NCBI GenBank assembly: GCA_022844565.1
Contig: JALHLK010000044.1
Location: 1 to 40,831, forward strand
DNA length: 40,831 nucleotides
Direction of reading: 5' to 3'
Source: Saprospiraceae bacterium
Lineage (GTDB): Bacteria > Bacteroidota > Bacteroidia > Chitinophagales > Saprospiraceae
The stretch's first letter is position 1, and every line of letters begins with the position of its first letter. Under the pieces are notes generated by a model. It was not told where the DNA came from and ran no database searches. It was given only the letters and a program-made list of their open reading frames with translations. Of the stretch, positions 5,500-40,831 are shown in pieces. Made by a program: the position numbers and the translations under genes.

Positions 5500-5901
5500 T
5501 TAAAAGGGAAGGGGTGCTTCGACATCTTCGACTTCGAGATTAGCATTGGCATTTACAACCGAAGTTTTTTTGTTGTTGACGACGATGAAGTCTTCTGCTA
5601 CGATTTCGGTGATTTTGACAGGTTTTTCATTTTTGTCTTGATAGTCACGATATTGTAGGTGACCTTTTACCGCGACCATGGATCCTTTTTGCAATGCTTT
5701 GGTCATGAGTTCTGCTTGGATACCCCATGCGATGATGTTGTGCCATTGGGTTTCTTTTTGAAGCTCGCCTTTTGCATTTTTATAATACGTGGTAGTAGCG
5801 AGTGATGTGTTGGCTTTTTTGTTGCCGGAGTTGAAAGTGATAAGGTTGACATCTTGGCCAAGGTTTCCGATTAGGTTGACGGTGTTGTTCATTGATTTCA
5901 T
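5500..5901 (-). CDS. ssb: Single-stranded DNA-binding protein (tandem copy 2)
   Basis: This 133-residue SSB has a single OB fold (residues about 5-105) and a short acidic C-terminus ending DVEAPLPF, the partner-docking tip. It binds ssDNA during replication, recombination and repair. It differs from copies 3 and 4 by a two-residue Asn-Ala insertion in the linker and by PVKITEIVAEDF in place of AVKVTEIVVEDF. In the linker it matches copy 5, which suggests copies 2 and 5 are older sister types or were homogenised by gene conversion. The start at MKSMNN is shared by all copies. No classical Shine-Dalgarno is seen, only the AT-rich leader typical of this phylum. Confidence 0.93.
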   Translation of the reverse strand: MKSMNNTVNLIGNLGQDVNLITFNSGNKKANTSLATTTYYKNAKGELQKETQWHNIIAWGIQAELMTKALQKGSMVAVKGHLQYRDYQDKNEKPVKITEIVAEDFIVVNNKKTSVVNANANLEVEDVEAPLPF

Positions 5902-5983
5902 TTTTGTAAAATTTTAATGTTTTTGAATGATTACATGCTTGAATGCAAGAATGCAAGAATGATTTAATTAATATGATTTTAGA

Positions 5984-6379
5984 TTAGAAAGGAAGGGGTG
6001 CTTCGACTTCTTCGACTTCGAGATTAGCATTTACAACCGAAGTTTTTTTGTTGTTGACGACGATGAAGTCTTCTACTACGATTTCGGTGACTTTGACTGC
6101 CTTTTCATTTTTGTCTTGGTAGTCACGATACTGTAGATGACCTTTTACCGCGACCATGGATCCTTTTTGCAATGCTTTGGTCATGAGTTCTGCTTGGATA
6201 CCCCATGCGATGATGTTGTGCCATTGGGTTTCTTTTTGAAGTTCGCCTTTTGCATTTTTATAATATGTGGTTGTAGCGAGTGATGTGTTGGCTTTTTTGT
6301 TGCCAGAGTTGAAGGTGATTAGGTTGACATCTTGGCCAAGGTTTCCGATTAGGTTGACGGTGTTGTTCATTGATTTCAT
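5984..6379 (-). CDS. ssb: Single-stranded DNA-binding protein (tandem copy 3)
   Basis: This 131-residue SSB has the same OB fold and PLPF tip as copy 2. It is identical to copy 4 except for two Tyr/Phe exchanges (TTYYKNA versus TTYFKNA; QYRDYQ versus QYRDFQ). Its start is exactly 478 bases from that of the next copy, and the 3' flank with octamer remnants is also duplicated, which indicates recent tandem duplication of the whole gene-plus-spacer unit. All copies read the same way, so they could be one transcript or individually expressed. Confidence 0.93.
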   Translation of the reverse strand: MKSMNNTVNLIGNLGQDVNLITFNSGNKKANTSLATTTYYKNAKGELQKETQWHNIIAWGIQAELMTKALQKGSMVAVKGHLQYRDYQDKNEKAVKVTEIVVEDFIVVNNKKTSVVNANLEVEEVEAPLPF

Positions 6380-6461
6380 TTTTGTAAAATTTTAATGTTT
6401 TTGAATGATTACATGCTTGAATGCAAGAATGCAAGAATGATTTAATTAATATGATTTTAGA

Positions 6462-6857
6462 TTAGAAAGGAAGGGGTGCTTCGACTTCTTCGACTTCGAG
6501 ATTGGCATTGACAACCGAAGTTTTTTTGTTGTTGACGACGATGAAGTCTTCTACTACGATTTCGGTGACTTTGACTGCCTTTTCATTTTTGTCTTGGAAG
6601 TCACGATACTGTAGATGACCTTTTACCGCGACCATGGATCCTTTTTGCAATGCTTTGGTCATGAGTTCTGCTTGGATACCCCATGCGATGATGTTGTGCC
6701 ATTGGGTTTCTTTTTGTAGCTCGCCTTTTGCATTTTTAAAATACGTAGTTGTAGCGAGTGAGGTGTTGGCTTTTTTGTTGCCAGAGTTGAAAGTGATAAG
6801 GTTGACATCTTGGCCAAGGTTCCCGATTAGGTTGACGGTGTTGTTCATTGATTTCAT
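6462..6857 (-). CDS. ssb: Single-stranded DNA-binding protein (tandem copy 4)
   Basis: This 131-residue SSB has an OB fold followed by a short linker and an acidic tail ending EEVEAPLPF. It is nearly identical to copy 3. Its upstream spacer differs slightly from that of copies 2 and 3: GAATGATT is lost from the leader and the octamer variants read GAATGCGT and GAATGCAT. Tyr-to-Phe changes at two OB-fold positions are conservative. There is no sign of a frameshift or truncation. Confidence 0.93.
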   Translation of the reverse strand: MKSMNNTVNLIGNLGQDVNLITFNSGNKKANTSLATTTYFKNAKGELQKETQWHNIIAWGIQAELMTKALQKGSMVAVKGHLQYRDFQDKNEKAVKVTEIVVEDFIVVNNKKTSVVNANLEVEEVEAPLPF

Positions 6858-6932
6858 TTTTGTAAAATTTTAATGTTTAATTTAATGCGTGAATGCATGA
6901 ATGCGTGAATGATTTGATAATATGTTTTTGGA

Positions 6933-7334
6933 TTAAAAAGGAAGGGGTGCTACGACATCTTCGACTTCGAGATTAGCATTGGCATTTACAACCGAAGTTT
7001 TTTTGTTGTTGACGACGATGAAGTCTTCTACTACGATTTCGGTGATTTTGACAGGTTTTTCATTTTTGTCTTGGTAGTCACGATACTGTAGGTGACCTTT
7101 TACTGCGACCATGGATCCTTTTTGCAATGCTTTGGTCATGAGTTCTGCTTGGATACCCCATGCGATGATGTTGTGCCATTGGGTTTCTTTTTGAAGCTCG
7201 CCTTTTGCATTTTTATAATACGTGGTTGTAGCGAGTGATGTGTTGGCTTTTTTATTGCCGGAGTTGAAAGTGACTAGGTTGACATCTTGGCCAAGGTTTC
7301 CGATTAGGTTGACGGTGTTGTTCATTGATTTCAT
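6933..7334 (-). CDS. ssb: Single-stranded DNA-binding protein (tandem copy 5, promoter-proximal)
   Basis: This 133-residue SSB is first in the array on the transcribed strand. It shares the Asn-Ala linker insertion and the PVKITEIV segment with copy 2 and ends DVVAPLPF, with one acidic residue of the tip changed to Val. Its upstream region (7335 onward) is unrelated to the spacers between the copies. Read on the minus strand, that region has CATCTTTG at 7411-7418, a near match to the Bacteroidota -7 element, about 80 bases before the start codon; no good -33 partner is visible. A single promoter here could serve the whole array. Confidence 0.93.
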   Translation of the reverse strand: MKSMNNTVNLIGNLGQDVNLVTFNSGNKKANTSLATTTYYKNAKGELQKETQWHNIIAWGIQAELMTKALQKGSMVAVKGHLQYRDYQDKNEKPVKITEIVVEDFIVVNNKKTSVVNANANLEVEDVVAPLPF

Positions 7335-32511: not shown

Positions 32512-32601
32512 ATGGAGTACGGTAGCGGTAATATTTTATTTAACGGAAATCCAGTTATAAAATCAAAAATATCAGGTAGCGGAAAGATCAAGAAGTTATA
32601 A
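32512..32601 (+). pseudogene. DUF2807 (GIN/auto-transporter head) C-terminal fragment
   Basis: The frame from 32512 reads MEYGSGNILFNGNPVIKSKISGSGKIKKL and stops at 32601. GSGxIxFxGNPxIxxxISGSGxIKK is the closing repeat of DUF2807 proteins, which are exported beta-helix-like proteins of about 230 residues. A TAG lies two codons before the ATG, and nothing upstream extends the domain. Its end overlaps by 6 bases the opposite-strand ATPase fragment. Confidence 0.72.
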
Positions 32602-32742
32602 TAAATTCTGATCAAAAATTAGTCGGCCACAGAAAGTTTTTCCAATTCTCCTCATACCCAATACTGCTACAAGTTCAGCCTTGTCTGATTTTATGATTTT
32701 CTCAAGTTTTTCTTTCTCATTATCTCTGCAAAGAAAATTCAT
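32596..32742 (-). pseudogene. N-terminal fragment of a P-loop ATPase (archaeal-ATPase/DUF234 type)
   Basis: ATG at 32742 opens 48 codons: MNFLCRDNEKEKLEKIIKSD, then KAELVAVLGMRRIGKTFCG, then a short unrelated tail and a stop at 32596-32598. The text matches the start of the widespread 'FxxRexEl...YGRRRvGKT' ATPases, with Walker A GMRRIGKT. The normal continuation (FLIREFF and the rest of ~370 residues) is missing, so the gene is truncated right after the P-loop. Confidence 0.75.
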
Positions 32743-32814
32743 ATTTTTTTAAATTGGAAAATTCTGCAACTATATATAAATCAGTTATTTAAATCAAATT
32801 TATTAGTAATTAAT

Positions 32815-33016
32815 TTGTCCATAAATCAATTTTAATAGTACTTATGGACAAAACGTATGATTTTTAGATTTGTCCATAAGTCATTTATAAAAGTACTTAT
32901 GGACAAAACGATCTATCATTAGTTATGTCCACAAGTCATAAAATACGATACTTATGGACAAAACGTTTGATCGTTAAAATTGTCCATAGCTAATTATATT
33001 TAGCACTTATGGACAT
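32815..33016. repeat. Array of four palindromes at exact 55-bp period
   Basis: Each unit has a left arm TTGTCCATAAGT and a right arm ACTTATGGACAA, perfect inverse complements in unit 2, with a 13-base centre. Left arms start at 32815, 32870, 32925 and 32980, right arms at 32840, 32895, 32950 and 33005; every step is 55. The centres (for example 32827-32839 and 32882-32894) are variable and AT-rich. The 18-base linkers share only AACG at their start. Unit 3 has ATGTCCACAAGT and unit 4 TTGTCCATAGCT / ACTTATGGACAT as arms. No gene lies between the units. Confidence 0.9.
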
Positions 33017-33068
33017 ATCTATTTTATATTTTCAACAAAGATTACAAGTCTAACTTTTTGCTAAAATT

Positions 33069-33245
33069 TTATAAATCGATAATTAACAGCACTCTATTTA
33101 AAAATTGGAGCTTTGCACCTGTATCCAAATCACTATTATGCCAAATCACTTGAGCATTACCTCCATGTTTTTTGACCTGACCTATTAGATATTCGATCAC
33201 TCGATATTGATTGTCGTAATCTATATCAATTCCTAGGCAGGACAT
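33069..33245 (-). pseudogene. Probable polysaccharide deacetylase C-terminal fragment
   Basis: ATG at 33245 opens 58 codons with YRVIEYLIGQVKKHGGNAQV and IWHNSDL, then a stop at 33069-33071. KKHGG-x-x-x-x-IWHNSxL is the usual last motif of Bacteroidota polysaccharide-deacetylase-like (NodB-fold) proteins. The catalytic N-terminal part is missing, so this is a remnant. The family call is moderate. Confidence 0.5.
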
Positions 33246-39023: not shown

Positions 39024-40831
39024 TTAATCCAACTTTTCAATATTCAGTCCTGTACATGAAGGTACTGTATTCATATTTATAGTATTGACCCTTTGCATTC
39101 TAATTCTAATCACATCATTAGCTGAAAATTGAATAATTATACTCCTACTTGAACAAGTAGTTGACCCCCCATATGCATGAATAATTATATTAGAATTAGT
39201 TATTTCAGTTGCATTATTTTCCAACCAAAACCTACTAGATAACTCATTCAGTGAACCAATGTTTACTCCAACATTATAAGTTATTCTGTAAGTTCCAGCT
39301 TGCAAAACAGTAATTTGATTAGCAGCTAAAGTATATGCAGTACCTAAATTTATTCTTACTGTTGTTAAATCAAGCGTAGCTACCGCAGCAGTAATTGCTT
39401 GTACTCCTCCAGTTGAAAAAACATCAATAACCTTGGTTTCCAATCTCGATGAGGAGATTCTTTTCAATTGTCCTGTGGTTGGGTCTATTACTACAATGCT
39501 ATCCGTTGTAGAACCACTAGTCAGTCCTGTGATTTTCAATTTATTGCCGCCAGTTGCAAAGGTTAAGCTGTCTTTAGCGGCGACTTGGGTGATGGTGGTA
39601 GCACGATTGAGTGTTCCTCCTAATAGAATGCTATCACCACTTACGCCATTGCTCACTCCATTTGCACCTATCGTTGCCAATCTAGATGAGGAGATTCTTT
39701 TCAATTGTCCTGTGGATGGGTCGATTACTGCAATGCTATCCGTAGTAGAACCCGATACCAGACCTGTGATTTTCAATTTATTTCCGCTTGTTGCAAAGGT
39801 TAAGCTGTCTTTTGCCGCTGCTTGGGTGATGGTGGTAGCACGATTGAGTGTACCTCCTAATAGAATGCTATCACCACTTACTCCATTGCTCACTCCATTT
39901 GCACCTATCGTTGCCAATCTAGATGAGGAGATTCTTTTCAATTGTCCTGTGGTTGGGTCGATTACTGCGATGCTATCCGTAGTAGAACCCGATACCAGAC
40001 CTGTGATTTTCAATTTATTTCCGCCCGTTGCAAAGGTTAAGCTGTCTTTTGCCGCTGCTTGGGTGATGGTGGTAGCACGATTGAGTGTACCTCCGAATAG
40101 AATGCTATCACCACTTACGCCATTGCTCACTCCATTTGCACCTATCGTTGCCAATCTAGATGAGGAGATTCTTTTTATTTGTCCTGTGGTTGGATCTGTA
40201 ACTACAATGCTATCCGTTGTAGAACCCGATGCCAATCCTGTTATTTTCAATTTATTTCCGCCCGTTGCAAAGGTTAAGCTGTCTTTTGCCGCTGCTTGGG
40301 TGATGGTGGTAGCACGATTGAGTGTACCTCCTAATAGAATGCTATCACCACTTACTCCATTGCTCACTCCATTTGCACCTATCGTTGCCAATCTAGATGA
40401 GGAGATTCTTTTTAATTGTCCTGTGGTTGGATCTGTCACTACAATGCTATCCGTTGTAGAACCCGATGCCAGTCCTGTTATTTTCAATTTATTTCCGCCC
40501 GTTGCAAAGGTTAAGCTGTCTTTTGCCGCTGCTTGTGTGATCGTAGTCGCGCGATTGAGTGTGCCACCTAATAGAATGCTATCACCACTTACTCCATTAC
40601 TCACTCCATTTGCACCTATCGTGGCCAATCTAGATGAGGAGATTCTTTTCAATTGTCCTGTGGTTGGGTCGATTACTGCAATGCTATCCGTAGTAGAACC
40701 CGATGAAAGACCTGTGATTTTCAATTTATTTCCGCTTGTTGCAAAGGTTAAGCTGTCTTTTGCCGCTGCTTGTGTGATCGTAGTCGCGCGATTGAGTGTG
40801 CCACCTAATAGAATGCTATCACCACTTACTC
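39024..40831 (-). CDS. Repeat-fibre protein with C1q/TNF-like C-terminal domain (5' end outside window)
   Basis: The frame is open to the window edge at 40831, so the start is not visible. The visible part is a chain of 79-residue repeats: LKITGLxSGSTTDSIxV, then DPTTGQLKRISSSRLATIGA, then NGVSNGVSGDSILLGG, then TLNRATTITQAAAKDSLTFA. The periodic hydrophobics suggest a fibrous beta-helix or trimeric stalk like tail fibres. The last ~135 residues (VIDVFSTGGVQ...NIEKLD) resemble a C1q/TNF jelly-roll head (LQAGTYRITYNVGVN, SSRSIIIQFSANDVIRIRMQR). There is no T9SS sorting domain at this end. A role in adhesion or in a contractile-injection/phage-like fibre is possible; neither is proved. The intergenic gap to the giant gene is 93 bases. 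Confidence 0.85.
   Translation of the reverse strand, partial: VSGDSILLGGTLNRATTITQAAAKDSLTFATSGNKLKITGLSSGSTTDSIAVIDPTTGQLKRISSSRLATIGANGVSNGVSGDSILLGGTLNRATTITQAAAKDSLTFATGGNKLKITGLASGSTTDSIVVTDPTTGQLKRISSSRLATIGANGVSNGVSGDSILLGGTLNRATTITQAAAKDSLTFATGGNKLKITGLASGSTTDSIVVTDPTTGQIKRISSSRLATIGANGVSNGVSGDSILFGGTLNRATTITQAAAKDSLTFATGGNKLKITGLVSGSTTDSIAVIDPTTGQLKRISSSRLATIGANGVSNGVSGDSILLGGTLNRATTITQAAAKDSLTFATSGNKLKITGLVSGSTTDSIAVIDPSTGQLKRISSSRLATIGANGVSNGVSGDSILLGGTLNRATTITQVAAKDSLTFATGGNKLKITGLTSGSTTDSIVVIDPTTGQLKRISSSRLETKVIDVFSTGGVQAITAAVATLDLTTVRINLGTAYTLAANQITVLQAGTYRITYNVGVNIGSLNELSSRFWLENNATEITNSNIIIHAYGGSTTCSSRSIIIQFSANDVIRIRMQRVNTINMNTVPSCTGLNIEKLD
39451..40831 (-). repeat. 237-bp coding repeats (79 codons), about six units
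   Basis: The string GAGGAGATTC recurs at 39451, 39688, 39925, 40162, 40399 and 40636, every step 237. Copies differ by a few bases and fall into sub-types: the two units nearest the window end read TGTGATCGTAGTCGCGCG near 40540 and 40780, the others GGTGATGGTGGTAGCACG. The last unit toward the gene's 3' end branches into the head domain after RISSSRLE. Confidence 0.93.

Follow-up and report, generated by a model that had tools for sequence, protein, structure and literature searches.

What is a row of four palindromes, repeated with a period fixed to the base, doing in the genome of a Saprospiraceae bacterium? The palindromes lie in a stretch of 40,831 nt (the window), which is one whole contig of a draft genome of 5.59 Mb in 102 contigs. 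Their eight arms start at 32815, 32840, 32870, 32895, 32925, 32950, 32980 and 33005, in alternating plus and minus orientation; the steps alternate between 25 and 30 bp and the period is exactly 55. A first-pass annotation had put all eight arms on a 55-bp grid: position and phase are exact, as claimed, but only four of the eight arms spell TTGTCCATAAGT perfectly (the other four have 1, 2, 2 and 1 mismatches), and to that extent the claim was slightly overstated. The 13-nt centres were said to vary freely and do so (mean pairwise identity 0.46, against 0.88 for the arms); the same was said of most of the 18-nt linkers and holds less well, these being 0.65 identical with an AACG start in common. 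That shared start makes it probable that the units arose by duplication. A simple recent tandem duplication without function, which the annotation had named as one refutation of its own reading, would also account for the shared start, but its probability is negligible: centres that are 46% alike between arms that are 88% alike contradict it, and so does the recurrence throughout a gene family, described below, of the same geometry in other letters.

The eight inverted arms are far beyond chance. A description-length score for arrays of inverted arms, which rewards repetition of such arms over chance, reaches 77.1 in the stretch 32800-33030; the highest value among 500 dinucleotide shuffles is 13.8. 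The signal is one of clustering and grid, not of abundance: single loose arm matches (up to 3 mismatches) are not in excess in the window (63, with 60.3 expected). (A technical aside: an earlier word-count score could not separate arrays from AT-rich chance--for one locus, L014, 48 of 100 shuffles were as good--and the description-length score replaced it.) The array had been held not to be a CRISPR, correctly so: its arms are inverted and its gaps are 13 and 18 nt, and the direct repeats, unique spacers of ~25-40 nt and adjacent cas genes of a CRISPR were not found at it.

Which gene travels with the array? The annotation had posed that question and missed the truncated ATPase gene that adjoins the array. 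The features are as follows.

32599-32742, minus strand: truncated ATPase gene of PDC-S27 type (it opens with the ATG at 32742 and keeps ~46 homologous codons, the Walker A region among them; beyond these the reading frame stops)
32743-32814, minus strand: 72-nt spacer from the proximal arm to the ATG (leader/promoter region)
32815-32851: palindrome 1, nearest the ATPase start (arms 32815-32826 and 32840-32851, 13-nt centre; inner gap of 15 in the common frame defined below)
32870-32906: palindrome 2, both arms exact
32925-32961: palindrome 3, an inverted arm pair on the same grid
32980-33016: palindrome 4, farthest from the ATPase start

The 47-aa product of the gene fragment finds its best blastp match, among the family relatives collected, in L047 (52% over 46 aa, E 6e-11); its best Pfam E value is 0.019, the fragment being too short for Pfam cut-offs. 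By sequence it is a member of the PDC-S27 family, and the array is, on the same footing, the upstream region of a truncated PDC-S27-type gene. With ~46 codons left, the intact architecture (ATPase, winged helix, PD-(D/E)XK) is absent from the window; it is seen in a relative, the Pedobacter miscanthi protein L055. No promoter was identified in the 72-nt spacer. Other ORFs near the array are, judged by eye, presumably tig, clpP, clpX and a gene for a large secreted-type protein; of five sister genomes, four have a match to tig (L110-L113) and one gave none.

PDC-S27 is described, in the accessible part of PMC12988326, as an ATPase domain fused to a member of the PD-(D/E)-X-K superfamily with ~8,000 instances; most PDCs are said there to await validation, S27 not being singled out. 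PDC-S27 is a candidate single-gene antiphage system, in which an AAA+ ATPase resembling ORC/Cdc6 is combined with a winged helix and a PD-(D/E)XK nuclease-like domain. Residues E355, D396, E410 and K412 are invariant, and we take them to fit the PD-(D/E)XK nuclease motif. The genome that harbors the remnant also encodes six full-length homologues above the ATPase_2 cut-off (one also above the DUF234 cut-off). All six match the PADLOC PDC-S27 model PDLC04984 almost end to end (E 2.5e-175 or better) and belong to PADLOC's PDC-S27 (Pfam ATPase_2, in part DUF234), of which the window holds a remnant; none matched an NCBIfam model. Each of the six has its own array just upstream (scores 18-64, in every case above all 40 of its own shuffles, the largest shuffle of any being 16.6), and the arm letters of all six differ. 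The arm pair of one of them, L016, occurs three times in the genome, always at L016's own gene; the exact arm of the window occurs six times in the draft genome, four of these in the window array, and the exact arm pair, searched for throughout the draft genome, is found in the window array only. This privacy explains why a search for TTGTCCATAAGT arrays in relatives, which had been proposed as a check, comes back empty: the pair pattern is present in 1/199 genomes of the family and 1/395 of the phylum, and both are this genome. What is conserved is architecture and gene family, not the letters of the arm. Active avoidance of shared arms is not in evidence, since identical 8-base cores occur in 3/230 same-genome pairs of paralogues and in 74/3684 other-genome pairs.

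How common is this arrangement? Two sets of loci were scored. In a set with record titles (the best 80 of 576 loci, 78 of them scored, L048 and L064 having been dropped for short upstream sequence), 58/78 upstream regions reach a score of 15 or more and 53/78 a score of 18 or more, against 14/164 and 7/164 upstream regions of other genes and 1/156 and 0/156 shuffles. In a set from genomes of the family (30 initial loci and 99 further ones chosen among the matches listed), the corresponding numbers are 109/125 and 89/125, against 1/125 and 0/125 shuffles and 3/125 and 0/125 internal coding segments. (The 125 derive from the 130 loci L114-L243: L140 and L242 were set aside, L201 and L223 could not be parsed, and L234 was too short.) Shuffles of both sets pooled reach 15 in 2/281. 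The two sets partly overlap (L041 and L181 seem to be one gene), which is why what follows makes use of sequence weights, a 60% subset and held-out prediction.

Most titles of the named set are those of Bacteroidota; arrays are also found under the titles Butyrivibrio, Clostridiales, Oscillospiraceae, Planctomycetaceae and Succinatimonas. Scores fall below 15 in 20/78 named and 16/125 family upstream regions; in the named set these include loci titled Treponema, Ignavibacteriae and Chlamydiae (two), where no array was seen. Record titles may mislead, many being those of MAG contigs. One locus counted as positive, L105, has a 13-bp direct tandem repeat instead of a palindrome array. The family is patchy and multi-copy: it is present in 40/120 family genomes, with at least 12 copies in four genomes. 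Seven of 15 relatives on viral contigs reach a score of 15. Of eight relatives on plasmids, four exceed their own 20 shuffles: L262 and L264, with scores of at least 20, and L263 and L265, which are near 15; two haloarchaeal relatives, one from Desulfosarcina and one from Malaciobacter score only 7.5-12.5. The haloarchaeal and Desulfosarcina loci do not exceed their own shuffles, and the weak 12.5 of Malaciobacter does not look like an array. (The haloarchaeal L267 and L269, without a palindrome array, share TAAGTCATTATCG(C/T)AGTAATCATTA in the last 40 nt before the ATG.)

Aligning the arms of 173 arrays in one frame (L105 included; scores under 15 and identical proteins removed) yields the loose consensus TATA-ATTNGC[C/G]AAA[A/T] and a common geometry. 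The inner gap between 16-nt arms is 15 or 16 nt in 241/276 adjacent pairs with gaps under 40, placing the arm centres of one palindrome 31-32 bp, or ~three helical turns, apart; successive palindromes are separated by 4-6 nt in 109/164, ~two helical turns. Neighbours of the same orientation are 51-55 bp apart in 89/137 cases (60 arrays), with smaller groups at 63-64 and 74-75 (6 each). In this frame the window array has an inner gap of 15 (4/4) and a between-palindrome gap of 8 (3/3). In 93/166 arrays the proximal arm either overlaps the start codon or ends no more than 16 nt from it (in the window it ends 67-72 nt away), and where an array has several units, most of its arms are far 5' of the gene start. 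A row of phased inverted arms could also be a partition or centromere-like site bound by a ParB-type protein, one of the readings that had been offered for the window, and two plasmid relatives do have ParA or ParB genes nearby. As the main function it is nevertheless very improbable: ParA or ParB was not recognised, by eye, among the ORFs of the window, and arrays come several to a genome, each belonging to one ATPase-nuclease gene.

Do the arms resist change where the protein has changed little? Nine of ten orthologue pairs with at least 85% protein identity have arm columns, and in these the arms are 88-100% identical against 60-82% for the rest of the upstream region; the arms are ahead in 9/9, the pairs not all being independent. 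Over all pairs of 70% or more, 1457/2011 arm positions are identical against 2349/4232 of the rest, the order being reversed in 5/47. Arms that drift like neutral sequence, which the annotation had named as telling against its reading, are thus not what the orthologue pairs of the family display (the window array itself has no sister).

If each array is read by the protein encoded next to it, arm letters ought to follow the residues that read them. Arm similarity tracks protein similarity, with the highest correlation for the winged helix region (rho 0.31) and the lowest for the nuclease part (0.13), in a Mantel test on 54 of 60 arrays (dropped: the window array, L105, L079, L085, L080 and L089). 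When 16 arm positions were compared with all protein columns more than 80% filled, in 170 arrays (without the window array and two short proteins; L016 numbering), five pairs came out on top: arm10-279, arm11-279, arm12-307, arm7-282 and arm7-285, with z from 15.8 to 6.9. Residues 279, 282 and 285 belong to the recognition helix and 307 to the wing. The sixth pair, arm15-101 (z 6.1), involves an ATPase-domain residue, and of the 50 strongest pairs no more than 15 map to residues 256-320, a segment with 14% of the columns. After reduction to 83 arrays (non-redundant at 60%), the signal for 10-279, 11-279, 12-307 and 7-285 is equalled in 0/2000 permutations, that for 7-282 in 4/2000, and that for 6-282 in 1/2000. 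In a model of L055 (pLDDT 93.6, pTM 0.90; numbering is that of L016 plus one), the code residues sit where helix 282-293 begins and in the loop that connects strands 297-300 and 311-314.

The code can be written out: 1) at residue 279, S or T is paired with C at arm10 (46/49 and 10/11) and with A at arm11, D with G at arm11 (37/45), and N with T at arm10 (27/38); 2) at 307, R goes with T at arm12 (32/44) and K with A (86/101); 3) R at 285 goes with G at arm7 (29/43). It predicts held-out loci, relatives of 60% or more being excluded: residue 279 yields the correct arm10 in 120/165 (nearest protein 90, commonest base 70) and the correct arm11 in 130/162 (92 and 97), and residue 307 the correct arm12 in 137/155 (110 and 113). 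Rules for arm7 and arm6 are weak when held out (64/156 and 76/156; 109/160 against 102/160 by the commonest base). There are exceptions in the genome itself: L013 combines D279 with AT at arm10-11, and L017 combines K307 with T at arm12. Among 11 further loci with readable residues, outside the derivation set and with arms placed by eye, the code holds for L263 and L244 (D279/K307, with GG followed by A). It also holds at 307 and arm10 for L245 and L246, which are nearly identical, and at 279 for L262; the viral locus L248 fits at 307 and breaks the 279 rule; in the remainder arm or residue could not be placed safely. The covariation of arm bases with recognition-helix and wing residues, together with the place of these residues in the model, is the strongest line of evidence here and makes it most likely that the PDC-S27 protein binds the array at its own gene; such binding is a prediction from sequences and a model. 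The same covariation bears on another reading offered earlier, that the palindromes form RNA hairpins one after another. Folding as RNA is conceivable for inverted repeats, but bases that follow DNA-binding residues, the upstream position of most arms in multi-unit arrays and the lack of an Rfam match at gathering score in the window leave hairpins scarcely probable as the main function. (A tRNA scan of the window also came up with nothing.)

What, then, would read the array of the window? Its arms have CA at arm10-11 and T at arm12, for which the code predicts S or T at 279 and R at 307, a combination found in none of the six intact PDC-S27 proteins of this genome. The gene next to the array being lost past about codon 46, and no intact paralogue having the predicted residues, the array looks orphaned and seems to be without a remaining reader. 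A second decayed PDC-S27 copy (L242; contig C41, 40800-43200), with an internal deletion and arms on both sides, has an arm spelling close to that of the window array; judged by eye, its residue aligned with the wing position is still R, and its arm12 is T.

These lines of evidence converge on a private operator of a PDC-S27 gene, of which the window would hold a remnant; with binding and repression as its predictions, we regard this as very probable. An operator array was among the first suggestions made for the locus, together with selection on paired arms and phase, and both have gained: considerably more than a hundred homologous genes have an array of this geometry in front of them, and arm bases covary with the winged helix of the neighbouring protein. 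The mechanism might be pictured as follows. Each palindrome would present two half-sites ~three helical turns apart, with the next palindrome ~two turns on, spacings that allow a row of dimers to load on one face of the DNA; the encoded protein would bind the arms cooperatively; the bound protein would repress its own promoter, so that little is made of an ATPase-nuclease that may be harmful; and repression would be relieved by a cue, for instance infection or the state of ATP. Autoregulation by a cooperative row of dimers is suggested by arms at the start codon and by their private spelling. Its promoter side can be probed with the Bacteroidota-type -7 motif, which we take to be a promoter marker: the motif lies wholly between proximal arms in 17/103, with 5.5 expected (none was identified in the window), which argues only weakly for repression by promoter overlap. 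A looser version gave 56/166 against 6.8 expected, with bounds that took in parts of the arms.

Simple autorepression does not need arms on the far side of the gene. However, in 8/79 PDC-S27 genes a copy of the gene's own arm (16 bits or more) is found 3' of the stop codon within 300 nt, against 2/395 with swapped arms, so that these genes are bracketed by arms. (The copies lie 4-99 nt past the stop codon, at L093, L097, L046, L033, L072, L098, L137 and L069.) Might the arms be repeats that end a mobile cassette, or sites of recombination, with the ATPase-nuclease acting on them? The bracketing, the decayed copy with arms on both sides and a distant similarity to TnsC speak for it. On the other side are the 71/79 genes without a downstream copy within 300 nt, the frequent placement of proximal arms at the start codon, the tracking of arms with DNA-reading winged-helix residues, and the absence of a transposase or integrase domain from the six intact proteins scanned; the combination of arms at both ends with a transposase that marks a transposon or IS end was not found. 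We consider this reading decidedly improbable, and a recombination-site cluster, which had been suggested for the window, is not supported as the main function.

The fold of the protein raises a different possibility. Foldseek finds 2qen (PAB2304) as the best solved relative, followed by Aeropyrum ORC2 (E 5.6e-9) and eukaryotic ORC subunits, with Avs3 and TnsC further down; 2qen and the distant TnsC similarity also appear in sequence searches. We know of no upstream array for PAB2304 or for SSO1545 (the latter reportedly the subject of work by Xu et al. in 2009). ORC/Cdc6 initiators share the AAA+ and winged-helix fold, and archaeal orc1/cdc6 genes also lie beside inverted origin boxes. Could the protein be an initiator and the array its private origin or loading site? 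Fold, origin boxes and the two plasmid relatives near ParA or ParB genes (though both are without a clear array) point that way; many divergent copies per genome and a conserved nuclease-like motif point the other, PDC-S27 differing from the initiators precisely in its added nuclease-like domain and its many private arrays per genome. We think an origin improbable. Less improbable, although doubtful, is an elaboration of the operator: PDC-S27 and PDC-S01 as ORC/Cdc6-like, DNA-bound guards, the protein polymerising on the private array at its own promoter and phage disturbance of the filament (titration, unwinding, loss of ATP) inducing the gene and unleashing the nuclease. If that were true, the array would be operator, self-marker and infection sensor in one, and the many mutually insulated copies per genome would be explained. 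Avs3, an antiviral STAND ATPase (Foldseek rank 23, E 3.1e-7), is a known phage sensor; it has a related ATPase region and is far larger than PDC-S27 (2004 residues in the chain).

Some DUF4143 genes have arrays of their own. DUF4143 genes were tried as a negative control and rejected: repeat arrays reach 15 or more in 17/28 and 18 or more in 14/28, and the controls are consequently other-gene upstream regions, shuffles and coding segments. (A DUF4143-type gene scored earlier, L018, gave 11.8.) In part of these genes the upstream arrays are 22-bp direct iterons (about ten in L283) or 32-bp units; by autocorrelation, 16/29 upstream regions exceed all 30 of their own shuffles, 13 of the 16 at lags of 22, 32 or 66. 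Loci with such arrays include L283, L286, L281, L280, L290, L305 and L292. The two DUF4143 genes tested are PDC-S01; this related family carries iteron arrays in part. By frequency across prokaryotes, PDC-S01 ranks fourth among defences according to the accessible part of PMC12988326.

As kinds, repeated operators and iterons are known. In autoregulatory operators with several sites, and in the iterons of plasmids, helically phased repeats likewise precede the gene whose product reads them; PDC-S27 differs in half-sites ~three turns apart that are repeated ~two turns on, and in arm letters diversified between paralogues. What appears to be new, relative to the open-access literature, is a class of palindrome arrays, private, diversified and helically phased, that belongs to a widespread candidate defence family and comes with a protein-DNA code that can be read, and the presence of iteron arrays at another such family: no description of arrays at PDC-S27 or PDC-S01, or of a recognition code, was found in the accessible portions of that literature (including PMC12988326, PMC13356809, PMC1913061 and PMC5760070). 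The arrays suggest a role for the PDC-S27 winged helix and furnish each gene with a ready-made binding substrate on which the residue-to-base code is directly testable; they also provide a marker for decayed PDC-S27 copies and a natural set of differently spelled DNA-binding pairs.

Three other regions of the window deserve mention. Just beyond the array, a fragment at 33087-33245 (minus strand) matches a portion of a 462-aa open frame of contig C47 at 75% identity; L274, more weakly related, has the similar stretch at its C-terminal end and reads by eye as what we take to be a polysaccharide-deacetylase-type protein. At 5500-7334 (minus strand), four neighbouring ORFs of 131-133 aa share a 12-mer at 477-478 bp steps, which looks like a tandem gene duplication. 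At 39024-40724 (minus strand), a 566-aa ORF consists largely of near-identical repeats (LKITGLASGSTTDSIVVTDPTTGQ...).
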